From positions 1,548,250-1,612,249 of the forward strand of contig NZ_KI632512.1 of the NCBI RefSeq assembly GCF_000504305.1: 64,000 nt of DNA, written 5' to 3'. The notes below the pieces were generated by a model. That model had not been told where the DNA came from. It saw nothing but the letters and a program-made list of their open reading frames with translations, and ran no database searches. A program made the translations under genes and the position numbers. This DNA comes from Nitratidesulfovibrio termitidis HI1. GTDB lineage: Bacteria > Desulfobacterota > Desulfovibrionia > Desulfovibrionales > Desulfovibrionaceae. This document shows positions 34,627-52,197 of this stretch, piece after piece (positions within the stretch are counted from its first letter, which is position 1; each line of letters opens with the position of its first letter).

Positions 34627-35334
34627 TTACGCGCGCGCCCGGAACAGCCTGGCGAACAGCTGCTTGCGGGTGAGCGGGCCGGATTCCAGCTCGGCCACGG
34701 CGTGCTCGAAGTAGCTCTTCGGGTCACGCTGGAACAGGTACACCACACGCACGTCGTTGGGGTCGCCCAGGACGGCGTTGGGGTGCTTCTTCTTCACCTC
34801 GGCCAGACGCTTGTTGGCCAGTTCGGTCATTGCCGCCTCGTCGCCGAAGTTCATGCACCCTGTGGGGCAAGTCTTCACGCAGGCGGGCAGCAGGCCGTTC
34901 TGCACGCGGTCGTTGCACATGTCGCACTTGGACAGCAGGCCGGTGGCCTCGTCGCGGCGCGGGATGTCGTACGGGCAGGCGGAACGCACCATCTCGCCGT
35001 CCACCTTGGCGGTGAGCTCGGTGAAGATGACGGCCCCGGTCTGTTCATCCTTCAGCACCGCGCCTTCCAGGTCCACGTCTGCCTGGCCCTTGCAGGGGGG
35101 CTCGACGCAGTGGCGGCACTGTTCGGGAAAGAACAGCCAGTCCAGCTTCTTGTCGAACACCCCTTCCTCGAAGCGCACCGTTTTAAGGGTGACGTACGAG
35201 AGGTCCGGCGGGTTCTGGTGCGAACCGGTGTTGCGGGTTTCCTCGGCGGGCAGGTTCTTCCACTGCTTGCAGGCTATCTGGCAGCCGCGGCAGGCGGTAC
35301 ACCGGGTAAGGTCGATGAAGAACATCTTTCCCAT
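34627..35334 (-). CDS. fdhB: Formate dehydrogenase beta subunit (Fe-S)
   Basis: A 235-residue ferredoxin-like subunit that moves electrons from the catalytic subunit to periplasmic cytochrome c3. It has cysteine motifs for four 4Fe-4S clusters: C12-x2-C15-x2-C18-x3-C22 (CTACRGCQIAC), CRHCVEPPC, CPYDIPR with CDMCNDRV, and CVKTCPTGC. There is no membrane anchor or signal peptide of its own, so it would be exported with the Tat-tagged alpha subunit. It lies 2 bp after fdhA on the same strand. This two-subunit soluble form matches the periplasmic FdhAB enzyme of Desulfovibrio. Confidence 0.95.
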   Translation of the reverse strand: MGKMFFIDLTRCTACRGCQIACKQWKNLPAEETRNTGSHQNPPDLSYVTLKTVRFEEGVFDKKLDWLFFPEQCRHCVEPPCKGQADVDLEGAVLKDEQTGAVIFTELTAKVDGEMVRSACPYDIPRRDEATGLLSKCDMCNDRVQNGLLPACVKTCPTGCMNFGDEAAMTELANKRLAEVKKKHPNAVLGDPNDVRVVYLFQRDPKSYFEHAVAELESGPLTRKQLFARLFRARA

Positions 35335-35336
35335 GA

Positions 35337-38300
35337 CTACTTACCTCCCACCTTGCGGATATCGACCATGAAGGCCTTGGTCTCGGGGATGCCGGTGTTC
35401 GGGTCGCCCGCAGACGGCGTGAGCAGGTTGGCCGTGTCGCCGCCGTTCTTCGGCACCATCCACCCGTAGTGCCAGGGCAGGCCCACCATGTGGATTTCCG
35501 CGCCCATGACCTTGTAGGGCTTGATGCGCTCGGTGACGATGGCCACCGCTTCCAGCGAACCGCGCAGGCTCGAAACCTTGACGCGGTCGCCATTCTTGAT
35601 GCCGCGCACCTTGGCCAGTTCCTTGCTGATTTCGGCGAAGATTTCGGGCTCCGCTTCCACCAGCCATGCGCAACGGCGGGTCATCAGGCCGGTCTGCCAG
35701 TGCTCGGTGACGCGGTAGGTGGTGCCGATGAAGGGGAACTTCGGATCGCACACCGCCGCCTTTTCGCCCTCGATCTTGAAGGCCACCGGGTTGTGCAGCT
35801 GCTTCGAGAACGGGTTCTTGGAAACCGGGCACTCCAGCGGTTCATAGTGCTCGGGGAAGGGACCTTCCTCGCGGCCGGGGCCGTACAGGGCGCCGAAGCC
35901 GTGCGTCTGCATGATGAAGGGGTGCTTGGCGCCGGGGTCGCCGCCGCCGTCCACCACGTCGCCCACCCACTTGCCGTCCTTCCATTCGATGACGGCCTTG
36001 GCCGGGTTCCACGGCTTGCCGGTCTTGTCCACCGAGGCACGGTTGTAGATGATGCGCCGGTTCACCGGCCAGCTGAACGACCAGTTGGGGAACAGGCCGA
36101 TGCGCGCCTGTTCCGGCGTCTGCGCGCTGTCGCGGCGGGCCATCATGTTGCCCGCGTCGGTGAACGACCCGGCATGCAGCCAGTTGCCGGAACAGGTGGA
36201 ACCGTCCGCCGTCAGGAAGGCGAACGAGGGCACCTGCTGCCCGGCCTTGAACTGCTTGCCGCCCACTTCCGTGTCCTTCAGGAAGTAGCCGTTCATCAGC
36301 TTGGCCGTCTTGGCCGGGGAGAACTCGTTGTGTTCTTCCCAGTCCTTGATGTTCAGCTTCAGGATGGCATCGGCGTGCACGCCGCCTTCCTTGGCGTACA
36401 GTTCGCGGATCTTGTGCATCATTTCCAGCATGATGTCGCCGTCGGGCTTGGTCTGGCCCCAGGGCTTCGGACCGCGATAGCGCCACTGCATCCAGCGGCC
36501 GGAGTTGGCGACGGAGCCTTCCTTTTCGATGGACACGGCGCACGGCAGGAAGAACACTTCCGTGCCGATTTCCTCCGGCTTCATGTTCGGGCCCTTCCAG
36601 AACGACGACGTTTCGTTCTCGAAGATGTTCACGTTCACCAGCCAGTCCAGCTTGCCCAGGGCGCGCCGGTTCTTGTTGGCGTTGGCGCCGCCGCAGGCGG
36701 GGTTCATGCCCCACGCAAAGCAGCCCTTCACGTCGCCCTTGTCCATCTTGTCGAAGATGTTCAGCCAGAAGTAGTAGGTGGCGGGCTTGGTGGCATCGAG
36801 CTTGGGCATGACGGCATAGGCGTCCGCCGGGGCAAGGTCCGGATACAGGGCCTTCAGGTAGCTGGCCATGTACTTGGGCCGGTTCTGCCACCAGTTCACG
36901 CTCATGGGGTCTTTGGACTGCGGAGTGGCCGCATTGTAGGCGTCGAGCGTGGCGGCCTTGGTGGTGGGGGTGGGGTTGTACCCCGGCCAGATGTGCGACA
37001 GCAGGCCCTGGTCGGTGGAACCCTGCACGTTGGATTCGCCGCGCAGCGCGTTCACGCCGCCGCCAGCCACACCGATGTTGCCCAGCAGCAACTGCACCAT
37101 GGCCATGGAACGGATGTTCTGCACGCCCACGGAATGCTGCGTCCAGCCCATGGCGTACATGATGGTGCCCGCCTTGTCCGACTTGCCCGTGGCCGCGTAG
37201 GCCTTGTAGACCTTCAGGACCAGGTCCTTGGGCGTGCCGGTGATGTCGGCCACCTTGTCCACGGTGTAGCGCTCGTAGTGCTTCTTCAGCAGGTTGAAGA
37301 CGCACCGGGGGTGCTTCAGCGACGGATCGCGCTTGGGCACGCCGTTCTCGTCAAGCTCGAAAGCCCACTGCGACTTGTCGTACTTGCGCTTGTCCGCGTC
37401 GTAGCCGCTGAACAGGCCGTCCTTGAACGAGAACTTCTCGCTCACGATGAGCGAGGCGTTGGTGTACTCGCGCACGTACTCCTCGAAGTACAGCTTGTTA
37501 TCGAGGATATACTTGATGAGGCCGCCAAGGAACGGAATGTCCGCGCCCGACCGGATGGGGGCGTAGATGTCACACTTGGCGGAAGTACGCGTGAAGCGCG
37601 GGTCCACGTGAATCAGCGTGGCGCCCCTGTCCTGCGCGCGCAGCACCCACTTGAAGGAAATGGGGTGGTTTTCGGCAGCGTTGCTGCCCATGATCAACAC
37701 ACAATCACTGTTCGCGATATCGTTCCAGTGATTCGTCATCGCACCTCGACCGAACGACTCTGCCAGAGCCGGTACAGTGGGGCTGTGTCAGATCCGCGCC
37801 TGGTGTTCGATGAACACCAGGCCGAGGCTTCTGAGGATTGCCTGGTAGGCCCAGCATTCCTCGTTGTCCATGGCGGCGGAGCCGAACGACGCGATCGCTT
37901 CCGTCCGGTTCACCGCATCACCGGCCGGGTTGGCCAGTTGGAAGGATTCGTCGCGGGTCTTCTTGACGCGCTTGGCGATTTCGGTCAGCGCCCAGTCCCA
38001 TTCCACTTCCTTCCACTCGCCGCTGTTGGGCGCGCGGTACAGGGGCTTGGGCGAGCGGGCGTTGTTTTCACCCAGCTGAAAGATGGACGCGCCCTTGGGG
38101 CACAGGGAGCCTTCGTTGATGGGATGGTCCGGGTCGCCTTCCACGTTGACGGCACGGCCTTCGCCATTCTTGGCGGTGTGGACGATGAGCCCGCAGCCCA
38201 CCGCGCAGTAGCAGCAAACCGAGGTGGTCTGCTTTGCCCACTGGAGTTTCTGGAGTTCGGCCCGCGCCACCGAGGGCGCAAGGCTGATCCCCAGCCCGCC

Positions 38301-38363
38301 GAACGCGCTTGCCAGGGTGGCCCCCGCGCTCAGCTTGAGAAATTGCCTGCGATTGACAGTCAT
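35337..38363 (-). CDS. fdhA: Formate dehydrogenase alpha subunit, selenoprotein (TGA read as Sec192)
   Basis: The catalytic subunit, 1008 residues counting selenocysteine. It oxidises formate to CO2 (or the reverse) in the periplasm with a Mo/W bis-MGD cofactor. A plain ORF scan splits it at 37788-37790, but the frame is continuous: ...FIEHQARI, TGA, HSPTVPALAESFGRGAMTNHW. The TGA falls at residue 192, next to His193, exactly where the Sec-His pair sits in Desulfovibrio FdhA. The start MTVNRRQFLK is a twin-arginine signal with AAGGAGG upstream. The proximal 4Fe-4S motif is C50-x2-C53-x3-C57 with C88. A SECIS-like hairpin follows the TGA. The W/Mo choice cannot be told from sequence. Confidence 0.96.
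37750..37787 (-). promoter_or_regulatory. SECIS element of fdhA
   Basis: Immediately 3' of the TGA on the coding strand, CTG-TA-CC pairs with GG-CAG around the loop GGCTCT, with the TA bulged. The layout (bulge, short stem, GG-containing apical loop, about 17 nt after UGA) matches bacterial fdh SECIS hairpins bound by SelB. Confidence 0.75.
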
Positions 38364-39083: not shown

Positions 39084-39407
39084 GGGGGGTGTTTCTGGAT
39101 TAGGATTTTCGTTCATTGGCAAGGAAAACGAGCCTGCCATGAGGGAGTGCGGCAACCGTTAGGCGAGTTTGCGAGCCTTACGGATGGCGACCGCAACGCA
39201 TACTCTTATCGTATTCGACCGAGCCTTAGCCGTTAGGTGAGCGAAGCGAACCTTACGGATAAGGACAGCAGAGCTATGGCAGGCGAAGTTTGACCGCGTT
39301 GCGCACGATGACCGTAAGACTCGCGCTACGCGCTCACCTAACGGGCACGCTTCGCGCCCTTCGGGTCGGATGCCAATGGACGAAAAGACAATCCAGAAAC
39401 ACCCCCC
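39084..39407. mobile_element. 324 bp element with 37-38 bp terminal inverted repeats
   Basis: The left end (39084-39121) starts GGGGGGTGTTTCTGGATT and ends TTCATTGGCA; the right end (39371-39407) is its inverted copy with a few differences. Inside, a second inverted pair (GAGCCTGCCAT / ATGGCAGGC) and three REP-like units lie at 39156-39185, 39230-39260 and, inverted, 39312-39344. It has no ORF and looks like a MITE or large REP/BIME structure. Its right end meets the stop codon of the transposase-like gene. Confidence 0.75.
39156..39344. repeat. Three REP-like CCGTTAGG...CCTTACGG units
   Basis: The units are 30-33 bp, begin CCGTTAGGYGAG and end CTTACGG(AT). Two are direct and one inverted. 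The same unit, including the following GGCGACCGCAACGC, is found at 5298-5345. Confidence 0.8.
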
Positions 39408-40330
39408 TACGGGCGGGATTCATCCAACTCCGGCACATCAGGCACCATGTCGCACAGATAGCGCACCAACGTGGCGAACAGGTTCTCGCGCCGATGGTTG
39501 AAGCGGAATTCCAGTTCCTTGAGATACAACGGAAAACGCTGGGCCGACACGCCCTTGAAGGCTCGCAGCCGCCCCCCGGCGAATCTCCAGAACTCGCCCG
39601 GAGGCTCGGACGGACCGTCGGCCCGCCGCCGGATGTATTCGTAGGGCAGAGAATCGTCGCCGCACAGCACCAGGGCGTCGTAGTGTCTATAGGGCGCGGT
39701 GTGCACCAGGTTGCCCGCCCGTTCGATGCGCAGATGAAAATTGTGATTGAAGTGGAACACCGTCTCGGCGGACAGGCCGGAAACAAGGTCGATGAACACC
39801 CACCCGTTGCGTTCCAGGATGCCGAACACGGGGATGGGCACCTGCCCGCCCCCGCCCTTGGGCTCGCCGGTCAGCTTCTTGCCTTTCAGATAGCTGCCAA
39901 GGCCGGTTTCCGGCCCCAGCAACTGGCGGGCGTCGGGGGCGTGGGCCAGGATGGCAAAGCGCGCCGTGGTCACGGCCTTGTAGGCCGCGTTGTACGAAAG
40001 GCCCAGCTCGGCGGCCAGGGTGTGCACCGTGGCCTCGCCCGCGTACAGGTGCAGCAGGCGCAGCCAGGTCAGCGGCGTGAGGTTGCCGTTGTTGATCCAG
40101 CGACCGGAAAAGGGATGGAAGGTGTACTTGCAGCCCGCGCAGCGCCAACGCCCGGCAGACAGATCATACAATCGCCCGCCGCCGCAACGGGGGCAGAAAC
40201 TGCGCCCGCCCGGCCAACAGTGCTCCAGCAGATGGGCAAGGGCCGCCTCTTCCGAGGCAAGACACGGCTCGTCCAAGGCGAAATCCTGCCCTTCGGGGGC
40301 AGGGGACGACTGTTCGGGCAACAATTTCAT
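39407..40330 (-). CDS. IS1595/ISXO2-like transposase-related protein
   Basis: A 307-residue protein. The N-terminal zinc ribbon reads SFCPRCGGGRLYDLSAGRWRCAGCKYTFHPFSGRW, then a helix-turn-helix-like stretch (TVHTLAAELGLSYNAAYKAVTTARF) and a DDE-like domain with CGDDSLPYEYIRR and the end LYLKELEFRFNHRRENLF, the IS1595 pattern. It has no flanking copies of its own ends, sits next to an unrelated inverted-repeat element, and abuts tlpA. It may be an isolated or domesticated transposase. The ATG at 40330 has AGAAGGA; a GTG at 40453 that overlaps the tlpA stop is an alternative start giving 41 more residues. Confidence 0.75.
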   Translation of the reverse strand: MKLLPEQSSPAPEGQDFALDEPCLASEEAALAHLLEHCWPGGRSFCPRCGGGRLYDLSAGRWRCAGCKYTFHPFSGRWINNGNLTPLTWLRLLHLYAGEATVHTLAAELGLSYNAAYKAVTTARFAILAHAPDARQLLGPETGLGSYLKGKKLTGEPKGGGGQVPIPVFGILERNGWVFIDLVSGLSAETVFHFNHNFHLRIERAGNLVHTAPYRHYDALVLCGDDSLPYEYIRRRADGPSEPPGEFWRFAGGRLRAFKGVSAQRFPLYLKELEFRFNHRRENLFATLVRYLCDMVPDVPELDESRP

Positions 40331-40449
40331 GTCCTTCTGGTAGCCCAAGTCACCCCGTGCGCGCAATGCGCCCTCGCCCCGCTCGACCCGACTCACCCTG
40401 TCGCGCGCCCTGTCGCGCGCCCTGTTCCGGCCCCCGTCACGCATGTCGC

Positions 40450-41223
40450 TCACGGCAGCGCCCCTGCCGCCGCCAGCACGCGGTCCAGGAACTCCGCCGG
40501 AGTGCCGGAAAGCGCTCCGGCATGGGTGAACAGCACCCGGAATCCGTCGGCCTTGCGCCGCAGCACCCAGGTGAACGGCACCGGCAGGCCGCCTAGCTGA
40601 CCGTGCAGTGCCAGTTCCGGATCGGCGAACAGGGGAAAGGTCAGCCCGTGCCGCTGGCGAAAGGCCTGCACCAGATTCCAGTCGTCACCGGCGGCAATGC
40701 CCACCAGTCGCACCCGCCCGGCCAGATTGTCCGAACTGCCCGAACTGGCCGAGTTGGAGGAACTGGCCGAACCGGCGGACGCGATCAGCGCATGCAGCGC
40801 GCGCAGGGCCGGGGCTTCTTCCTGGCATGGCGCGCAGAACCAGCTGTACATGTTCACGATGAACACCTGACCGCGCAAATCCGAAAGATGGGCAGGCAGT
40901 CCTTCGGGGGCTTCAGGCGCATGTTCGGGCATGGCCACGTCCGGGCCGCCGGTCCATCCGGCATCCGGCGAGGGGACGCCAAGGGCGATGTCCGGGAAGC
41001 GCGCACCCGTCGGCCAGACAGCCGACCCGGCTGTTGCCGTACCGTCCGTCCCGGACCCGGACTGCTCCAGCGGCGCGGCAGCCTGTCCCGCCCGGGCCGA
41101 CTGAACCGGAATAACGACAAGCGCCAGCAGACAGACCGCCGTCAGCACGCCGCAACGCAACCATGACCGCGCGCTCCCACGCGGCCAGGCCCCCGCAGTC
41201 ATGGGCGAAAAAAACAATGCCAT
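40450..41223 (-). CDS. TlpA-like thioredoxin-fold protein, exported
   Basis: A 257-residue protein with an N-terminal hydrophobic signal (CGVLTAVCLLALVVIPVQSARA), so periplasmic or membrane-anchored. The thioredoxin-like domain contains the redox pair CAPC in FIVNMYSWFCAPCQEEAPALRALHALI and the cis-Pro segment GGLPVPFTWVL. A Ser/Ala/Asn insert coded by imperfect 9 bp repeats (40731-40774) splits the domain after the active-site helix. Such proteins reduce disulfides or support cytochrome assembly. GGGAG precedes the ATG at 41223. It is divergent from the three-gene signalling set. Confidence 0.83.
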   Translation of the reverse strand: MALFFSPMTAGAWPRGSARSWLRCGVLTAVCLLALVVIPVQSARAGQAAAPLEQSGSGTDGTATAGSAVWPTGARFPDIALGVPSPDAGWTGGPDVAMPEHAPEAPEGLPAHLSDLRGQVFIVNMYSWFCAPCQEEAPALRALHALIASAGSASSSNSASSGSSDNLAGRVRLVGIAAGDDWNLVQAFRQRHGLTFPLFADPELALHGQLGGLPVPFTWVLRRKADGFRVLFTHAGALSGTPAEFLDRVLAAAGALP

Positions 41224-41551
41224 CCGGACTCCCGTGTACGACGCGGCAGGTGGTGCGCGGTGCCGGGCCGCGCTTCGCGGCACCATCATAAAGTGTAGCC
41301 ATGCTCCACGCTTCTGACAACGGTCAGCGCAGCGCACCGTCCCCAGCCGCCAGCCACTGTCCTTTTCCTGCCATTCCGGTTGGTTTTGCGCCACATGGCG
41401 AAACTGCGCGCGCTCCGTTTCGGGGTCGCGCACCCTTGAACTTTCCACCATCGTCAGGCTACAGTCCGCACGGCGCGGCCCCTTGTCGCGCTGCGCCCCG
41501 GAATCCACCCCGGACTCCGAGGGGCAACGCCCGAGAGCAGGGAGAGCAAGT
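41224..41551. other. Divergent promoter region
   Basis: A 328 bp gap between tlpA-like and the signalling set. No gene or clear promoter could be placed. Confidence 0.5.
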
Positions 41552-43204
41552 GTGACCACGCGCACCGCAGCATCGCGCGCCGCCGCCCGGCATCCGGCCC
41601 CCTCGCGCCGGGCCGGGGGAATTTTCCGGTGCGCATCGGGCACTCCGCCCACGCCTGCCGTGCGGCCTGTTCCCGCGCCCTCCTCCGCGCTCTGCTGCGT
41701 GTTGTCACGCCCCCTCCGCCGCCCTGCATGGCGCCGCCTGCTGGCGCTGCTGCCCGTACTGCTCCTGCTGGCCCTGCCCCCCCTGCTGGCCGCCTGCAAC
41801 AGCGACAGTCCGCGCCAGCAGGAAAACGCGGCCACGCCGGGGGTCACCGGCGACACCATCCATCTGGCCTCGTCCCTGGCCCTGACCGGGCATGCCAGCT
41901 ACCTTGGCGTGCAGACCCTGCGCGGCGCGCTGTCGTACATCCACCACATCAACGACACCGGCGGGGTACACGGGCGGCGCATCACGATCACCGCGGACGA
42001 CGACGGCTACGATCCCCCGCGCTGCCTGGCCAACACCCAGCGGTTTCTCATCGATGGCGACGTGTTCGCCCTGTTCAGCTACGTGGGCACCCCCACCACC
42101 ATGCGGGTATTGCCGCTGGTGGAAGAGGCGCGCATCCCGCTGGTGGGCATGTTCACCGGGGCCAACGGCCTGCGCGAGCCGTTCAACCGTTACGTGTTCA
42201 ACGTGCGTGCCTCGTACTACCAGGAAACCAAGGCCGCCGTGCGCCATCTGGTGCGCGACCTTGGGCTGACGCGCATCGCCGTGTTCTACCAGTACGACGC
42301 CTATGGCTTCGACGGGCTGACCGGCACGGAAATAGCCCTGCGCGAACTGGGGTTGGCCCCGGTGACGCGCGGCTCGTACGTGCGCGGCACCACCAAGGTG
42401 GAGGAAGGGTTGCGCCGCATCCTGGCCGCCAACGCCCAGGCCGTGGTCATGGTGGGCACCTACGAGCCTTCGGCCCGGTTCATCCGCCTGGCGGAACAGG
42501 CGGGCCTGCGCGCGGTATTCCACTGCCTGTCGTTCACCGGGGCCGAGGAACTGGCCCGGCTACTGGGCAATGCGCCGGTGAACCCGGTGACCATGTCGCA
42601 GGTGGTGCCGCCCCCGCGCGCCAAGGAAACCCCCGACCTGCTGACCGCCGCCGCCGACTACGTGCAACTGCTGCACCGCTACTTTCCCGACGAGACGCCC
42701 AACACCATCGGCCTTGAAGGCTACGTCAACGCGCGCATCCTGGTGGAAGGGCTGCGCCGCGCAGGCCGCGACCTGACCCGCGAAGGCTTCGTGCAGGCCC
42801 TTGAATCGCTGCGCGACTACCCGCTGGGCGGCAGCACCTACGTGTCCTTTTCGCCCGAGAGCAGGCAGGGCATGAACCAGGTGTACTTCACCCGACTGCA
42901 CGACGGGCAGTTCGAACTGATTCGCGACTTTGGCGAAGTGCGCCCCCTGCCTGCGCCAGCCCCCGAGGCCGGGCCTGAATCTGCGGTCGGACCTGACGCT
43001 GCGGTCGGGCCGGATGTTTCGCCTGATCCGGATTCCGTTTCTCGGCCTGACCTTGCGATCGGCGCGGGTGGCGGATCAGGAACGGATTCCGCCCCGAGTC
43101 CCGTTCCGAGCATTGTCCCGAATTCTGGCCCGAGCCAGGGCCCGAATCCTGCGCGGACCCCCGTGCTCTCCCCCGCACCGGGCAGCGCGGAGGCACGGTC
43201 ATGA
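41552..43204 (+). CDS. Periplasmic-binding lipoprotein, branched-chain amino acid (LivJ) fold
   Basis: A 550-residue protein. A long basic leader precedes a lipoprotein signal (LLALLPVLLLLALPPLLAAC, lipid Cys82). The type I binding fold reads GDTIHLASSLALTGHASYLGVQTLRGALSYIHHINDTGGVHGRRI, VFALFSYVGTPTTMRVLPLVEEARIPLVGMFTGA and RIAVFYQYDAYGFDGLTGTEIAL. The C-terminal 75 residues are a Pro/Asp/Ser/Gly tail of no fold. The GTG at 41552 has GGGAG; a shorter GTG start at 41699 is possible. It overlaps the histidine kinase start (ATGA), so it is likely the ligand-binding partner of that kinase and not part of an ABC importer. Confidence 0.82.
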   Translation: MTTRTAASRAAARHPAPSRRAGGIFRCASGTPPTPAVRPVPAPSSALCCVLSRPLRRPAWRRLLALLPVLLLLALPPLLAACNSDSPRQQENAATPGVTGDTIHLASSLALTGHASYLGVQTLRGALSYIHHINDTGGVHGRRITITADDDGYDPPRCLANTQRFLIDGDVFALFSYVGTPTTMRVLPLVEEARIPLVGMFTGANGLREPFNRYVFNVRASYYQETKAAVRHLVRDLGLTRIAVFYQYDAYGFDGLTGTEIALRELGLAPVTRGSYVRGTTKVEEGLRRILAANAQAVVMVGTYEPSARFIRLAEQAGLRAVFHCLSFTGAEELARLLGNAPVNPVTMSQVVPPPRAKETPDLLTAAADYVQLLHRYFPDETPNTIGLEGYVNARILVEGLRRAGRDLTREGFVQALESLRDYPLGGSTYVSFSPESRQGMNQVYFTRLHDGQFELIRDFGEVRPLPAPAPEAGPESAVGPDAAVGPDVSPDPDSVSRPDLAIGAGGGSGTDSAPSPVPSIVPNSGPSQGPNPARTPVLSPAPGSAEARS

Positions 43205-45261
43205 TCCTGCGCCGCTTCCAACGCCTGGGGCTGCAACAGAAGTTCTTCATCACCATTCTTGTGGTGATCATGGCCATCAGCGGCACCATCGCCCTGTTGG
43301 CCCGGTGGATTCTGGTGTCCGGCCTGACCGCGGAACTGGAACTGCGCGGCGCGGCCATCGCCCACAGCGTGGCGGCGCGCGGGGCGGGCTACATCCTGGA
43401 CAACGACGTGCCGCAACTGGTGGGGCTTATCTTCGACGAGGCCCAACTGCGCGAGCGGCACCAGTTCATCGCCTACATCTTCGTCACGGACCCGCAAGGC
43501 GCCGTGCTGGCCCACACCTTCATCAAGCCCTTCCCCGAATACCTGCGCATGGCCAACCCCCTGCCCGACGGGATGGCCAAAAGCGTGGAACTGGTGGACG
43601 TGATGGGGGTGTCGGCCTACGACATCGCCGTGCCGGTGAAGGAGGGGCTGTACCGCATCGGCGACGTGCACGTGGGCCTCAGCAAGGACCACATGGACAG
43701 CCTGGTGGGCAAGCTGCGGGTGACCTTTCTGGGGTTCATCACGGCGGTGGTGGTGATCACCTTCTTCATCAGCCACTATCTCGCCCGGTACATCACCGCA
43801 CCCGTGACGCGCCTGACGCGCATTTCCGACGATCTTTCACGCGGCAACTTCAACACCGCCGTGGACCTGGACGTGCCCGACGCGGGCTGGGACATCCATG
43901 ACTGCCCCGCCTACAGCAACACCGACCTGCCGTGCTGGCACTTCGACGAGCAGCGCCGGGGCCCGCGCCAGACGCCGGAGCGGCTGCACAGCTGCCCCAC
44001 CTGCGTGTTCTACCGCAAGCGCGGCGGCGACGAGGTGATCCAACTGGCCGACTCGTTCCGCAACATGGTGTGGTCCATCCGGCTGTACCGCAAGCGGCTG
44101 CAGGAGTCGGAGGGCAAGTACCGCTCGTTGTTCGACAGCGGGCCGGACCCCATCTTCGTGGTGGACTGCACAGACCTGTGCATTCTGGACGCCAACCCGC
44201 GCGCCGTGGAAATGTACGGCTACACCCGCGAGGAACTGCACGGCCTGCCGCTCACCGCGCTGGGCGGCGACGTGATGCGCGAATGCAGCGCGGTGTTCGA
44301 CACCGTGTTCGATGGCGGCGATGCGGCGGGCGGCTGCCTGAACATTCCCAAGGCCATGCAGGTGCGCAAGGACGGCAGCGTGTTCCACGTCAACCTGCAT
44401 GCCTGCCCCATCAGCTATCGCGGGCGGCCCGCCATCATCGTGTCCACCACCGACATCAGCGAAATGATGGACAAGGACGCCCAGATCATCCAGGCGGCCA
44501 AGATGAAGTCGCTGGGCGAAATGTCCGCCGGGGTGGCCCACGAGTTGAACCAGCCGCTCAACGCCATCCGCATGGGCAGCGACTTCCTGTCGCTGGTCAT
44601 CGAGCAGGGGCTGCCGCTGCCGCAATCGCGCCTGCACGAGGTTGCGCGCGACATCTGCACCCAGGTCGACCGCGCCACGGAAATCATCAACACCCTGCGT
44701 TCGTTCGGCCGCAAGTCCGACGCGGTCATAGAGCCGCTGGACATCAACCGGCCCACCCGCGCCGTGCTGCCGCTGGTGGAGCGCCAGTTCCTGCTCCAGA
44801 ACGTGGAGGTGAAGCTGGACCTGGCCGAGGGCCTGCCCCCGGTGCGCGCCCACGAGAACCGCCTGCAGCAGGTGTTCTTCAACCTGGTGACCAACGCCCG
44901 CGACGCCATTCTGGATCGCGCCCGCAAGGATGGCGGCCTGCGCGGGGTGATCACCATCGCCACGCGGGCCGAGGCCGACGGCGACGCCGTGGTGGCCACC
45001 GTGTCCGACAACGGCGCGGGTATTCCCGAGGCGCTGCGCGAGCAGATATTCCAGCCGTTCTTCACCACCAAGGTCACGGGCCAGGGCATGGGCCTTGGGC
45101 TGTCCATCGTGTACGGCATCGTGCGCGATTACGGCGGCGACATCCGCATCGAAAGCACAGAGGGCAAGGGCGCCGCATTCCACGTGCGCCTGCCCGCCCA
45201 CCGCGATACCCCGCCCCACGGCGGCAAAAAGGACGACAGCCATGCGCATCCTGGTGATTGA
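43201..45261 (+). CDS. Sensor histidine kinase with HAMP cysteine insert and PAS
   Basis: A 686-residue membrane kinase. Membrane helices lie at about 15-38 and 174-194 around a 135-residue periplasmic domain. A HAMP domain follows, interrupted by an insert with C235, C245, C265 and C268 (DIHDCPAYSNTDLPCWHF...LHSCPTCVF), then PAS (about 305-420) and HisKA with phospho-His447 in SAGVAHELNQPLN. The ATPase part has NLVTNARDAI, DNGAGI and FTTK..GQGMGLGLSI. The ATG overlaps the stop of the binding-protein gene, and the stop lies past the start of the receiver gene. The cysteines could hold an Fe-S cluster or zinc, giving a redox input. Confidence 0.93.
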   Translation: MILRRFQRLGLQQKFFITILVVIMAISGTIALLARWILVSGLTAELELRGAAIAHSVAARGAGYILDNDVPQLVGLIFDEAQLRERHQFIAYIFVTDPQGAVLAHTFIKPFPEYLRMANPLPDGMAKSVELVDVMGVSAYDIAVPVKEGLYRIGDVHVGLSKDHMDSLVGKLRVTFLGFITAVVVITFFISHYLARYITAPVTRLTRISDDLSRGNFNTAVDLDVPDAGWDIHDCPAYSNTDLPCWHFDEQRRGPRQTPERLHSCPTCVFYRKRGGDEVIQLADSFRNMVWSIRLYRKRLQESEGKYRSLFDSGPDPIFVVDCTDLCILDANPRAVEMYGYTREELHGLPLTALGGDVMRECSAVFDTVFDGGDAAGGCLNIPKAMQVRKDGSVFHVNLHACPISYRGRPAIIVSTTDISEMMDKDAQIIQAAKMKSLGEMSAGVAHELNQPLNAIRMGSDFLSLVIEQGLPLPQSRLHEVARDICTQVDRATEIINTLRSFGRKSDAVIEPLDINRPTRAVLPLVERQFLLQNVEVKLDLAEGLPPVRAHENRLQQVFFNLVTNARDAILDRARKDGGLRGVITIATRAEADGDAVVATVSDNGAGIPEALREQIFQPFFTTKVTGQGMGLGLSIVYGIVRDYGGDIRIESTEGKGAAFHVRLPAHRDTPPHGGKKDDSHAHPGD

Positions 45262-45985
45262 CGACGAGGCGCCCACCCTGAAGATGTTCGGCCTGCTGCT
45301 GGAAGCGCTGGGGCACGAGCCGCTGGCCGCGGAATCGGGCGAGGAGGGGCTGATCCGCTTCGACCGCGAACGCCCCGACGTGGTGCTGACCGACATCAAG
45401 ATGCCGGGCATCGACGGCATGGACGTGCTGCGCGCCCTGAAGGAAGCCGACCCGCGCAGCGAGGTCATCGTCATCACCGGACACGGCGACACGGAACTGG
45501 CCATAGAGGCGCTGCACCTGGACGCCACCGACTTCATCAACAAGCCGGTGCGGCGCGAGGCCCTGGAACACGCCCTGGCGCGGGCCGAGGAACGCATCCG
45601 CCTGAAACGCGTCAAGGAAGAGGAAATCCGGCTGGTGGCCGGACCGGGGGTGGCGGAAACTGGCGACGCGGACACGGGCGCGGCGCAGGACGGCGTCGCA
45701 GTGGTGCGCATACGCGGCACGGTGAACAGCCCGGCGGAACCGGTACTGCGCCACGTGTTCGAAGAGGCGCTGCTGACCGGCGCACCAACGGTGGTGCTGG
45801 ACTTCGAGCCGTCCGTTTCGGTGAACGGCGCGGGCATCGCCGTGCTGGCGGAACTGGTGCGCCACGCCCGCACCCTGGGCCGCGCGGTGCGCATCAGCGG
45901 GGTGTCGCCCAATCTTTCCACCGTGTTCGACGTGGTGGGCATTGCCCGCAACGCCACGGTGCAGGTGGGCACGGCGGCGGAATAG
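45242..45985 (+). CDS. Response regulator fused to a STAS domain
   Basis: A 247-residue protein. The receiver has D7/D8, phospho-acceptor D51 (LTDIKMPGIDG) and K101 (INKPV). Residues about 150-245 are a STAS (anti-sigma-antagonist-like) domain: VVRIRGTVNSPAEPVLRHVFEEALLTGAPTVVLDFEPSVSVNGAGIAVLAELVRHARTLG. No DNA-binding domain is present, so output is by protein contact. It overlaps the kinase gene by 20 bp, and the kinase is its obvious partner. A serine in the ...VSVNGAG loop takes the usual STAS phosphorylation zone, but its role is untested. Confidence 0.92.
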   Translation: MRILVIDDEAPTLKMFGLLLEALGHEPLAAESGEEGLIRFDRERPDVVLTDIKMPGIDGMDVLRALKEADPRSEVIVITGHGDTELAIEALHLDATDFINKPVRREALEHALARAEERIRLKRVKEEEIRLVAGPGVAETGDADTGAAQDGVAVVRIRGTVNSPAEPVLRHVFEEALLTGAPTVVLDFEPSVSVNGAGIAVLAELVRHARTLGRAVRISGVSPNLSTVFDVVGIARNATVQVGTAAE

Positions 45986-47839: not shown

Positions 47840-48622
47840 ATGACCATCCGCGCCCTCATCGTCGATGACGAACGCCCCGCCAGGGACGAACTGGCCTACC
47901 TGCTCTCGGCCTACCCGGACGTGGAGGCCGCCGAGGCGGCATCGGCCAGCGAGGCGTTGCGCAAGCTGGCGGACGAAAAGTTCGACCTGGTCTTCCAGGA
48001 CATCCAGATGCCGGGGCACGACGGCTTCCACGTCCTGCGCGAGGCGCAGGCCCAGTCGCAGCCGGGCGAGGCCCCGCCGCTGTTCGTCTTCGTCACCGCC
48101 TTCGACGAGCACGCCATCCGCGCCTTCGAGGAAAACGCCCTCGACTACCTGCTGAAGCCCGTGGCCCCGGCCCGGCTGGCCCGCTGCCTGGACCGGGTGC
48201 GCGGACGACTGGCCACCGACGGCGCACAGCCGTTGCAGAACGCCGTGGCCACCCTGCTGGGCGCGTTGGGTCATTCCAAGCCCGTGGACCGTCTCGCCGT
48301 CGAGCACGGCGGGCGCATCAGCCTCATCCCCACGCGCGACGTGGTGATGATAGAGGCCGAAGAAAAGCGCATCGTGGCCGTCACCGACGAGGGCCGCCTG
48401 CCCTGCCACAACATGAACACCCTGGCCCGGGCGGAAGAACGCCTGGCCGGGCTGCCGTTCTTTCGGGTGAACCGCGCCGTGCTGGTAAACCTGGAGCGCA
48501 TTGCCGAATTTTCGCCGTGGATCAACGGCAAGTACCATCTGGTCATGAACGACCCGGAGCGCACCGAGGTCACCGTCAGCCGCAACCGCGCGCGCGACTT
48601 CCGTTCCCGGCTCGGCGTCTAG
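47840..48622 (+). CDS. lytR: LytTR-family response regulator
   Basis: A 260-residue regulator. The receiver has VDDE (8-11), phospho-acceptor D54 (VFQDIQMPGHDG) and K in YLLKPV. The C-terminal LytTR DNA-binding domain (about 152-258) has VDRLAVEHGGRISLIPTRDVVMIEAEEKRIVAV and FFRVNRAVLVNLERIAEFSPW. AAGGGG precedes the ATG. With the kinase just downstream and CstA-type transporters after that, it matches the BtsR/YpdB/LytR group that switches on pyruvate- or peptide-uptake genes. I use lytR as a family name; direct orthology to Staphylococcus LytR is not claimed. Confidence 0.9.
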   Translation: MTIRALIVDDERPARDELAYLLSAYPDVEAAEAASASEALRKLADEKFDLVFQDIQMPGHDGFHVLREAQAQSQPGEAPPLFVFVTAFDEHAIRAFEENALDYLLKPVAPARLARCLDRVRGRLATDGAQPLQNAVATLLGALGHSKPVDRLAVEHGGRISLIPTRDVVMIEAEEKRIVAVTDEGRLPCHNMNTLARAEERLAGLPFFRVNRAVLVNLERIAEFSPWINGKYHLVMNDPERTEVTVSRNRARDFRSRLGV

Positions 48623-48791
48623 GCGCTGCCGCCGGATTGCCCTTTCGCCCGTTGGCTGGCGCCTCGAAAGACAGATCACGTGTACGTCAGGTGAGCTTGC
48701 GAATCAGACGGGCATCGTACAACGCGGTCAGGCTCCACCTGTCAACGAACACAACTCCTGATTGAAAAACAGCCCCTAGCGAGGGCACCGC

Positions 48792-50615
48792 ATGGACCCG
48801 ATACTTTCCCCCCATGTTCCCGAACTGTTCATCACCCTGACCCAGCGCTTCGGCCTGCTGCTGGCCGGGGGCTTCGCCATCATGACCTTTGCCCCGCTGG
48901 ACAAGGTGGGGCCCGGGCGCTCGCGCCCGTTGTGGGCCACGGCGCTGCTGGTGGTCATGTTCGGGCTGTTCGGCATTCTGGGCACCTACACCGGCAACTT
49001 CGTGTTCCAGTCCTTCGCCAACCTGCGGGCCATGGGCGTGATCACCGCCGGTTTGTTCGGCGGGCCGGTGGTGGGCGCGGGGGCGGGCATCATCGCCGCC
49101 GGGCACCGCTATCTCATCGACGTGGGCGGATTCAGCGCGCTGCCGTGCGGCCTTGCCACCCTGAGCGAAGGGGTGCTGGCCGGGCTGGTGGCATGGCGCT
49201 TTCCGGAACGGCGGCTGGACTGGGCCACGGCCCTGACCCTGGGGCTGATCGGCGAAACCTACCACATGGGCCTCGTGCTGTGGCTGGCCGAACCCTTCAC
49301 CGAGGCCGTGGAACTGGTGCGGGTGATCAGCCTGCCCATGATCCTCATCAACGCCATGGGCGCGGCGCTGTTCGTGCAGGCCCTGCGCCTGCAACTGCAT
49401 TTCCGCGACCTGCGCGACTCCACCCAGGCCCGTCAGATCCTGTCCATCGCCAACCGGACACTGTCGCACCTGCGTTCCGGCCTGACGCGCGCCTCTGCCC
49501 AGGCCACGGCGGACATCATCCTGGACGAGACGCACGTGGCCGCCGTGGCCCTGACCGGGGGCGACATGGTGCTGGCCCACGTGGGCGCGGGCGACGACCA
49601 CCACATGCCCGGCTTTCAGGTGCGCACCCTGGCCACCCGCCGGGTGGCGGAAACGGGCGAGCCGCTGTTCGTGCGTGACCGCGATTCCATCGGCTGCCGC
49701 CAGCCCGGCTGCCCGCTGACCGACGCCATCATCGTGCCGCTGCGCAAGGGCGGCCAGATTCTGGGGTGCCTGAAGCTGTACGGCACCAAGAACCGCCCGC
49801 TGGACCAGACCCGCTTCGAACTGGCCAAGGGGTTGGCCGACCTGTTCTCCACCCAGATCGAACTGGAAGAGATCGGCATCAAGAACCAGCTCATCGCCCG
49901 CGCCGAAATCCGACGCCTGCAGGCCCAGATCAACCCGCACTTCCTGTTCAACTCGCTGAACACGGTGGCCTCGTTCTGCCGCACCGCGCCCGGCCAGGCC
50001 CGCGACCTGATCCTGGACCTGGCCCGGTACATGCGCCGCAACCTCGACTCCAGCCGGGGGGCCATCCGCCTGTCCGAGGAACTGGAGCAGGTGCGCTCGT
50101 ACCTTGTCATCGAGCAGGCCCGCTTTGGCGACCGCATCCGCGCCGACATCGACCTGGCCCCAGGCACCGCCGACTGGCTGATACCGCCGCTGCTCATCCA
50201 GCCGCTGGTGGAAAACAGCGTGCGCCACGGCATCCTGGCCCGCGAGGAAGGCGGTCTGGTGCGCCTGTCGGCCCATGCCGACGGCGACCACCTGCTGGTG
50301 ACCGTGGAAGACGACGGCGCGGGCATGGACGACGACACCCGCAACGCCATTCTGGCCCCGGACGCCAGCGACCTTTCGCCCCGCATCCTCCCCGTCCCCC
50401 CGAGCGAGGCGCAGAACGACGCCCAGTCCGGCCCCCAATTCGGCACATCCTGCACCGACATCCCGGGCGAAAGCCTGCGTGACGGCATTGGCGCCCGCAA
50501 CTGCAACCAGCGGCTGCTGCAGATGTACGGCCCCTCGTACGCCATGCGCATAGACAGCGAACCCGGCAGGGGCACGCGCGTCTCGTTCCGCATTCCGCGC
50601 CAGCAGTTGCAGTAG
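48792..50615 (+). CDS. lytS: LytS/BtsS-type sensor histidine kinase
   Basis: A 607-residue kinase. The 5TM LytS sensor domain spans about residues 15-190 (LLLAGGFAIMTFAPLDKVG, GGPVVGAGAGIIAAGHRYLIDVGGFSALPCGLATLSEG), which in BtsS binds pyruvate. A GAF domain follows (about 210-350), then the kinase with phospho-His in QAQINPHFLFNSLNTVASFC and QPLVENSVRHGI. Between the N and G2 boxes of the ATPase is an extra 30-residue Pro/Ser/Gln insert (50375-50465). GAGGG precedes the ATG. It lies 169 bp after lytR on the same strand. The ligand is inferred, not shown. Confidence 0.92.
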   Translation: MDPILSPHVPELFITLTQRFGLLLAGGFAIMTFAPLDKVGPGRSRPLWATALLVVMFGLFGILGTYTGNFVFQSFANLRAMGVITAGLFGGPVVGAGAGIIAAGHRYLIDVGGFSALPCGLATLSEGVLAGLVAWRFPERRLDWATALTLGLIGETYHMGLVLWLAEPFTEAVELVRVISLPMILINAMGAALFVQALRLQLHFRDLRDSTQARQILSIANRTLSHLRSGLTRASAQATADIILDETHVAAVALTGGDMVLAHVGAGDDHHMPGFQVRTLATRRVAETGEPLFVRDRDSIGCRQPGCPLTDAIIVPLRKGGQILGCLKLYGTKNRPLDQTRFELAKGLADLFSTQIELEEIGIKNQLIARAEIRRLQAQINPHFLFNSLNTVASFCRTAPGQARDLILDLARYMRRNLDSSRGAIRLSEELEQVRSYLVIEQARFGDRIRADIDLAPGTADWLIPPLLIQPLVENSVRHGILAREEGGLVRLSAHADGDHLLVTVEDDGAGMDDDTRNAILAPDASDLSPRILPVPPSEAQNDAQSGPQFGTSCTDIPGESLRDGIGARNCNQRLLQMYGPSYAMRIDSEPGRGTRVSFRIPRQQLQ

Positions 50616-50793
50616 CGCCGGGCGGGACGGCCCATTGCGCGAGCCCCCGTGGCCGCGCGCTCCCCGCCGCGCAGGCCGCGTTGCCATGCGCGGCGGTTGC
50701 GGGTATTTTCCCCCCGTCGCCGGTCGCCATCCGCCCTGACCTCAGTCATGCCATCCTCATGACGACCCCGCCATCACTCCCCAAGGAGCACCC

Positions 50794-52197
50794 ATGCCGC
50801 CCGGGGCATACCTTGCCATAAGCCTTGCCGCACTCATCTGCGGCTACCTTCTCTACGGCCGACTGATGGCGCGCCTGATGCGCCCGGACAACGCCCGTCC
50901 CACCCCCGCCTGCACCATGGCCGACGGGGTGGACTACGTGAAACTGCCCGCAAAGACCGTCTTTCTCATCCAGTTGCTGAACATCGCGGGCATCGGACCG
51001 GTGTACGGCCCCATCCTGGGGGCGCTGTACGGCCCGTGGGCGCTGCTGTGGATCGTGCTGGGGTCTATCTTTGCCGGGGGCGTGCACGACTACTTTTCCG
51101 GCATGCTTTCGGTGCGGCGGGGCGGCCTTTCACTGCCGGACGTGGTGGGCGACCACCTGGGCATTCCCATGCGCCGCTTCATGCAGGTCTTCTCGCTGGT
51201 GGTGGTGGTGCTGGTGGGGGTGGTGTTCGTCACGGGTCCGGCGCGCCTGCTGTCGGACATGACCGCCATTCCGGTAATGACCTGGGTGGTGATCATCTTC
51301 GCCTACTACTTCCTGGCCACCATCCTGCCCATAGACGTGGTCATCGGGCGGGTCTACCCCATCTTCGCGGGCTCGCTGCTGGTCATGGCCGTGGGCCTTA
51401 CCGCCGCGTTCTTCGTGGAGGGCTACGCCACCCGCGCACCCCTGAACTGGACAGCCCCCCCCGCCGATCTGCCCATGTGGCCGCTGCTGTTCATCACCAT
51501 TGCCTGCGGGGCCATTTCCGGCTTCCACGCCACCCAGTCGCCCCTGATGGCCCGCTGCCTGCCCGACGAACGCAGCGGGCTGCCCGTGTTCTACGGGGCC
51601 ATGATCGCCGAAGGCGCGCTGGCGTTGATCTGGGCCACCCTGGGCATGGCCCTGTACCCCAACCCGCAGGCGCTGCACGCCGCCATCGCCGCCGGAGGGC
51701 CGGGAAAAGTGGTCAACGACGTGTCCATGGAACTGATGGGGCCGGTGGGGGGCATTCTGGCCATTCTGGGGGTCATCGTGCTGCCCATCACCTCCGGCGA
51801 CACGGCCTTCCGCTCCGCCCGCCTGACCATCGCCGACGTGCTCGGCGTGGCGCAGCGGGAACGCCGCCGCCGACTGCTCATCGCGGTGCCGCTGTTCGCG
51901 CTGGGCGCCGCCCTGTCGCAGGTCAACTTCGAAGTGATCTGGCGCTACTTCGGCTGGGCCAACCAGGTGCTGGCAACGCTGGTATTGTGGACCGTCGCGG
52001 CTTTCCTGGCGCGCGGGAGCAAATTCCACTGGCCCGCCAGCCTGCCCGCCAGCTTCATGACCGCAGTGTGCGCCACCTACATCTGCCATGCCCGCATCGG
52101 CCTGAACCTGCCGCTGACCGTATCCTCGTGGATGGGGGGTGCCGCCGCCGTGCTGACGCTGGCCCTGTTCCTGTCCCGCTGCCGCCGCAAGGCCTGA
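50794..52197 (+). CDS. cstA: CstA-family transporter, copy 1
   Basis: A 467-residue membrane protein with about 13 helices. The CstA hallmark DGVDYVKLPAKTVFLIQLLNIAGIGPVYGPILGALYGPWALLWIVLGSIFAGGVHDYFSGMLSVR is near the N-terminus, and GAISGFHATQSPLMARCL and the VVLPITSGDTAFRSARL-like segment follow. CstA/BtsT proteins take up pyruvate or peptides. It is the short form (about 470 rather than 700 residues). AAGGAG precedes the ATG. It is the most divergent of the three tandem copies and lies 179 bp after lytS. A terminator follows it. Confidence 0.93.
   Translation: MPPGAYLAISLAALICGYLLYGRLMARLMRPDNARPTPACTMADGVDYVKLPAKTVFLIQLLNIAGIGPVYGPILGALYGPWALLWIVLGSIFAGGVHDYFSGMLSVRRGGLSLPDVVGDHLGIPMRRFMQVFSLVVVVLVGVVFVTGPARLLSDMTAIPVMTWVVIIFAYYFLATILPIDVVIGRVYPIFAGSLLVMAVGLTAAFFVEGYATRAPLNWTAPPADLPMWPLLFITIACGAISGFHATQSPLMARCLPDERSGLPVFYGAMIAEGALALIWATLGMALYPNPQALHAAIAAGGPGKVVNDVSMELMGPVGGILAILGVIVLPITSGDTAFRSARLTIADVLGVAQRERRRRLLIAVPLFALGAALSQVNFEVIWRYFGWANQVLATLVLWTVAAFLARGSKFHWPASLPASFMTAVCATYICHARIGLNLPLTVSSWMGGAAAVLTLALFLSRCRRKA

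Follow-up and report, generated by a model that had tools for sequence, protein, structure and literature searches.

A gene for a LivJ-type binding lipoprotein that is followed by genes for a sensor histidine kinase and a response regulator, with no transporter gene beside it, raises the question of what the binding protein serves and what the regulator controls. Such a trio lies in the window, i.e., the whole 64,000-nucleotide stretch analyzed here, which comes from the 4.26 Mb genome of Nitratidesulfovibrio termitidis HI1. An initial annotation made from the sequence alone had described three overlapping ORFs encoding a LivJ-type lipoprotein, a PAS histidine kinase and a receiver-STAS (REC-STAS) protein, and had suggested that the lipoprotein is a ligand sensor for the kinase and that the output works by partner switching through an anti-sigma factor or other STAS-binding protein. 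The overlaps were confirmed from the ORF coordinates (4 bp between lipoprotein and kinase, 43201-43204; 20 bp between kinase and REC-STAS, 45242-45261), and the three assignments were borne out by Pfam (Table 1). The architecture and the sensor logic of that annotation have stood, the case for partner switching is weakened, and the formate dehydrogenase and thiol-redox neighbors of the trio, which lie outside the segment that it covered, had been missed. From gene content and conservation, the trio is probably a ligand-sensing three-component system that serves the periplasmic formate/redox metabolism of sulfate reducers.

Table 1. The trio, its functional sites and its neighbors, by position in the window
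Feature	Position	Strand	Evidence and remarks
fdhB, 4Fe-4S subunit	34660-35334	-	bounds are those of the tblastn match, not gene ends
fdhA, periplasmic formate dehydrogenase	35337-38363	-	TAT signal; in-frame TGA 37788-37790 is codon 192; Cys 845, 872
IS1595-like gene	39407-40453	-	DDE_Tnp_IS1595 1e-20 and Zn_ribbon_IS1595 (Pfam); recurrent beside fdhA
CxxC redoxin (AhpC-TSA family)	40450-41310	-	AhpC-TSA 2.5e-10 (Pfam), motif FCAPC; divergent from the trio; start tentative
Binding lipoprotein gene	41552-43204	+	Peripla_BP_6, LivJ-like fold; true start possibly downstream of 41552
Sensor histidine kinase gene	43201-45261	+	sCache_3, interrupted HAMP, PAS, HisKA, HATPase_c
sCache_3 domain	43318-43719	+	sCache_3_2 2.2e-19, residues 40-173, before HAMP (Pfam)
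Four-Cys insert C235, C245, C265, C268	43885-44016	+	inside the HAMP connector
PAS domain of kinase	44116-44463	+	Pfam
HisKA His447 codon	44539-44541	+	H-box His in 65/65 aligned kinases
REC-STAS response regulator gene	45242-45985	+	Response_reg plus STAS_2/STAS (Pfam)
REC Asp51 codon	45392-45394	+	Asp51 and several other REC residues invariant in 41 aligned proteins
STAS loop N195-G196-A197-G198	45824-45835	+	replaces D-S-S-G

The lipoprotein matched Peripla_BP_6 with E = 1.5e-56 (Pfam) and has the lipobox LLAAC, with the codon for the lipidated Cys at 41795-41797. Its start codon is uncertain because conservation upstream of the lipobox is poor, even among members of the genus. In the orthologs a Cys ends the N-terminal hydrophobic stretch, as found by the lipobox pattern in 63 of 80 and by eye in the other 17 (duplicates included). 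The AlphaFold model had a mean pLDDT of 92.6 and its best PDB match was 4kv7, with a TM score of 0.90; the titles of 4kv7 and 3lop, the solved structures nearest to the protein, name no ligand. The protein also carries a long tail rich in Pro, Ala, Gly and Ser (42950-43204), before which the matches from outside the genus mostly stop.

The kinase, whose TM segments were read from the sequence, has an extracytoplasmic sensor domain, recognized as sCache_3_2. A sequence comparison of the sCache part with solved structures gave a lone match to RecA, which was disregarded, and no stretch passed on its own. HAMP fell below the Pfam cut-off because the domain is interrupted by an insert: the HAMP fragment with the insert scored 29.1 bits over profile positions 2-35, and with the insert removed 40.6 bits over positions 2-48. 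The cysteine insert that the initial annotation had pointed out is a conserved feature, its four Cys residues in the HAMP connector being present in 64 of the 65 aligned kinases (duplicates included). The sole aligned kinase lacking them, at locus L037 (5021-6964), has lost all four together, as would be expected if they formed a metal or cluster site. The fragment of the window kinase gave no match to the two-CW domain (NF045718) at the curated cut-off of 35 bits, an ortholog fragment from L054 scored 28.6 bits and so fell under the same cut-off, and a literature search for this domain found no useful paper.

The initial annotation had proposed a search of genomes for the three-gene synteny. 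This search was run, and the synteny is far beyond chance. The complete trio was present at 50 of the 65 loci selected by REC-STAS (L031-L095), and lipoprotein, histidine kinase and REC-STAS were found in this order at 35 of 37 loci of relatives selected by lipoprotein. The two incomplete loci of relatives are cut short by contig ends, reached within the kinase in L125 and 0.6 kb past it in L134. Several of the 15 incomplete REC-STAS loci are short contigs, one has a split kinase (L061), and others have REC-STAS without lipoprotein and kinase. In these counts, ten lipoprotein-selected loci duplicate REC-STAS-selected loci by a midpoint test; of 110 loci, L096-L110, where the match covered part of the query or REC by itself, and L001-L030, whose flanks are short, were excluded; and the lipoprotein orthologs of G029 and G055, which lie at contig edges, are absent, as is the window itself. 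The split kinase gene, from Desulfoferrobacter, is apparently interrupted by about 1.5 kb (L061, 3339-6935).

Among 59 related genomes, 40 had a lipoprotein ortholog and 36 had REC-STAS; all 36 also bear the lipoprotein, and one of them, G004, was matched over REC-STAS positions 1-131 only. In a phylum-wide sample of 297 genomes, 8 had full-length REC-STAS, one of them being the window's own, and a clear score gap separates these (279 bits) from partial matches (193 bits); REC-STAS thus belongs to part of the Desulfobacterota and not to the whole phylum. The nearest REC-STAS loci, those of Nitratidesulfovibrio oxamicus and N. liaohensis among them, are 90-94% identical. In two members of the genus REC-STAS is interrupted or partly matched (L088 7001-7586; G004:C2:876868-877260), and in Desulfosarcina and kin (L086, L089-L092) it lies beside formate dehydrogenase (FDH) genes and a gene for a large BTAD/NTPase-type regulator, without lipoprotein or kinase. 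When plasmids were searched with REC-STAS, 80% of the query was covered at one place in 2 of the 1846 matching records; the best 10 matches listed were 25-47% identical to the query across most of its length or in parts.

The trio tends to adjoin genes for a predicted periplasmic selenocysteine FdhAB, a link that is new relative to the initial annotation. As a CO2 reductase of sulfate reducers, FdhAB has been studied intensively, and in the D. vulgaris enzyme the surface disulfide C845-C872 controls activity and O2 protection, according to the available text of PMC11323313 and PMC13397495. The FdhA of the window has the predicted Sec192 (TGA), C845 and C872 at positions identical to those given for DvFdhAB (SeCys192, C845-C872) in the available text of PMC11323313. 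In those parts of the two papers that were available, no physiological reductant or regulator of FdhAB is named and the word thioredoxin does not occur; nor does histidine kinase occur in the available text of PMC13397495. A sensor system that tracks the FdhAB type across genomes offers candidate genes for the question of this reductant or regulator.

FdhA was found in 40 of 40 lipoprotein-bearing genomes versus 9 of the 19 others (Fisher value 1.5e-6), and an FdhA of the C845/C872 type in 38 of the 40 trio genomes versus 3 of the 19 others (1.2e-9), ten of these 19 being without FdhA at the cut-off used; because the genomes are related by shared ancestry, both values overstate independence and are indicative only. 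In 26 of 40 genomes FdhA shares a contig with the trio and is no more than 12 kb from it. Twelve of the other 14 have no FdhA on the trio contig, several of these contigs being short, and two have it about 210 kb off. By locus, FdhA or FdhB was near the trio at 30 of the 50 REC-STAS-selected and 25 of the 35 lipoprotein-selected loci. The Cys pair is present in 22 of 25 adjacent FdhA proteins, and two further adjacent copies, at L229 and L231, also have it. It is present in 18 of 45 non-adjacent FdhA proteins of trio genomes, a sample that omits most copies from the window's genus, some fragments, and the second copies of G033 and G037, and in 3 of 11 FdhA proteins from genomes without the trio. 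The trio genomes without a Cys-pair FdhA are G044, which has another pair, and G027, in which there are a non-pair copy and unresolved fragments; a Cys-pair FdhA without the trio occurs in three genomes. In G028 it is not the FdhA adjacent to the trio but a copy at a distance of about 12.6 kb that has the pair.

Thiol-redox genes are associated with the trio as well. The CxxC redoxin is a recurrent neighbor, and many lineages have, downstream of the trio, genes for a CxxC redoxin, a rhodanese-like membrane protein, a MauE protein and a small lipoprotein. With a redoxin query from L064, redoxin was found near the trio at 35 of 50 REC-STAS-selected and 24 of 35 lipoprotein-selected loci; the corresponding counts for the rhodanese-like protein were 24 of 50 and 16 of 35. 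The latter consists of a large N-terminal part, a TM helix and a rhodanese domain, and a sequence search with the N-terminal part against solved structures found no match. The catalytic Cys of rhodanese sulfurtransferases is absent from its rhodanese domain in 31 of 31 proteins, and the loop, placed by eye, is of the VYGR/VYGG type. The MauE protein has the motif CGCF in 30 of 30.

A full-length rhodanese-like protein is encoded in 20 relatives, in one of them in two pieces. By coordinates, its gene starts no more than 1 kb downstream of REC-STAS in 19 of the 20, a distance into which the redoxin would fit; in the twentieth, G021, its contig is short and has fdhA on it as well. All five in the phylum sample lie next to REC-STAS, again by coordinates. 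The rhodanese-linked REC-STAS copy and the lipoprotein are on different contigs in G011, G017 and G029, and loci such as L078 and L079 indicate that REC-STAS accompanies the rhodanese-like set without an adjacent lipoprotein and kinase. The window's genus retains the redoxin, transcribed divergently, and has the rhodanese-like membrane protein in none of 8 genomes. A lipoprotein-like rhodanese with a loop Cys (by eye) is encoded beside a MauE gene in the genome of the window (G000:C1:1532867-1533890; L237 2368-2904), about 56 kb from the trio.

We propose that the lipoprotein would bind a small periplasmic ligand and act on the sCache part of the kinase, and that the four-Cys module in the HAMP connector, which is probably metal- or redox-responsive, would gate or integrate the signal. 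The kinase would then phosphorylate Asp51 of REC-STAS, and phosphorylation of REC, rather than of a STAS serine, would control the binding of STAS to a partner. The pathway would probably serve periplasmic formate/CO2 electron transfer, that is, FdhAB and the adjoining thiol-redox genes. It might be argued instead that the binding protein serves an ABC importer whose other genes lie elsewhere, and that it is simply co-transcribed with a two-component system, given that its fold is that of the binding proteins of Liv/amide transporters and that the genome has other Liv transporters. We consider this very improbable. The initial annotation had noted no permease or ATPase by the lipoprotein, and queries for LivH, LivM and LivF, with thresholds of 80-120 bits, likewise gave nothing above threshold at 102 trio-related loci; the best value below threshold, 100 bits for LivF in L071, is what other ABC ATPases would give. 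With the same queries a permease/ATPase was detected at six of seven further Peripla_BP_6 loci in this genome, four of these controls being independent because two of the six positive loci had supplied the queries; no Liv genes were detected at the seventh locus, L154. The genome has 11 Peripla_BP_6 matches, and the control covered seven of these loci, that of the trio not counted. Further, lipoprotein, kinase and REC-STAS are co-retained across orders. The binding-protein gene is linked to kinase and response regulator genes and not to transporter genes, and the conserved synteny and the failure to find an ABC partner at orthologous loci support the suggested role of the lipoprotein as a ligand sensor for the kinase. 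The trio might also regulate something unrelated to formate and share a conserved chromosomal neighborhood with fdhAB, since fdhA is not adjacent in all trio genomes and other neighbors, e.g., the IS1595-like gene, recur too. This seems unlikely, given that FDH genes occur on either side of the trio and in either orientation across loci, so that the linkage has been kept or rebuilt through rearrangement, and that the co-occurrence at the level of genomes is independent of adjacency. The IS1595-like gene, with its zinc ribbon and recurrence by fdhA, may be a domesticated regulator rather than a mobile element.

How REC-STAS would act bears on the remaining alternatives. The STAS fold is present (Pfam STAS_2 1.4e-10, STAS 7.5e-9) and the structure model had a mean pLDDT of 85.9; the best 50 Foldseek matches listed were to REC domains throughout and have no bearing on the STAS type, for which MlaB-like STAS is an alternative to SpoIIAA-like STAS. 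In classical partner switching, STAS would act as an anti-anti-sigma factor: switched by phosphorylation of REC, it would bind an RsbW-like kinase and thereby release a sigma factor. Besides the fold, the presence of RsbW-like HATPase_c_2 genes (E <= 1e-10) in 39 of 40 trio genomes fits this proposal, but 13 of the 19 genomes that lack the trio have such genes too, and by eye only one of the 40 genomes, G017, has an RsbW-like gene no farther than 12 kb from the lipoprotein. In the window's genome the two strong RsbW-like kinases sit elsewhere, each with its own STAS neighbor, whose loops read DSSG and SSAG by eye. The trio loop was placed against D-S-S-G by eye, using these neighbors and SpoIIAA. 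It is mostly NGAG, with the variants NGAA, NGTG, NGTS and SGAG, and in 41 of 41 aligned REC-STAS proteins Gly196, and thus no phosphorylatable Ser or Thr, stands at the position of SpoIIAA Ser58. Canonical partner switching by serine phosphorylation is therefore unlikely, and the earlier proposal is weakened; an anti-anti-sigma role switched by REC is also unlikely; a REC-gated interaction of STAS with a partner is possible. One such partner might be the cytoplasmic part of the Cys-less rhodanese membrane protein; its binding would switch a periplasmic thiol relay of MauE and CxxC redoxin by which the C845-C872 disulfide of FdhAB is reduced or oxidized, with no transcriptional action. If true, this would make the thiol relay a signal-controlled post-translational activation of a CO2 reductase. 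We hold it to be quite unlikely, and it is less likely to be general because the rhodanese-like protein is missing from the window's genus.

The sensing system proposed here has partial precedents. TorT-TorS-TorR and LuxP-LuxQ contain binding-protein-dependent kinases, and in them, as in the trio, an orphan periplasmic binding protein is encoded with a sensor kinase and no transporter. The trio differs in that its binding protein is a Peripla_BP_6 lipoprotein, its kinase is of the sCache_3 type and carries four Cys in HAMP, and its output protein, REC-STAS, has no DNA-binding domain. In D. vulgaris, another sulfate reducer, DVU0245-DVU0251 also cluster a binding protein (PtxB-type), a kinase (a PAS/HAMP pseudogene) and a receiver protein; as far as the available text of PMC4001038 goes, that cluster differs in its phosphonate-type binding protein, in a receiver for which no STAS is noted, and in a link to nitrate resistance and not FDH. 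The regulator of TciK-TciR of Vogesella resembles REC-STAS in having as output a partner-switching-type domain and not DNA binding, but that of TciR is RsbW-like and not STAS, and the phrase periplasmic binding is absent from the main text (PMC12826045, available part). SpoIIAA and RsbV share the STAS fold with the trio protein and, in the part of PMC8256260 available, have a phosphorylated Ser, whereas the trio protein has Gly there and a fused REC. Trios of binding protein, kinase and regulator are known in principle, and what appears to be new here is the exact combination and the FDH link.

The initial annotation knew of no described system with exactly this trio, and our literature search, to which most subscription papers were outside, likewise found no description of the trio, of REC-STAS function or of the FDH link; a search by locus tag found no description of such a trio. 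The matches listed included nothing on a formate-sensing two-component system of Desulfovibrio and no work on REC-STAS function, and the main text of the Rajeev response-regulator paper, in the part available, mentions neither STAS nor formate dehydrogenase. For mechanistic study, the trio provides a natural REC-STAS output and a HAMP with a cysteine module. Downstream of the trio, at 47840-52197, the window carries genes for a LytTR response regulator, a 5TM-LYT kinase and CstA, which resemble the DVU0596 system as described in the available text of PMC3333781.
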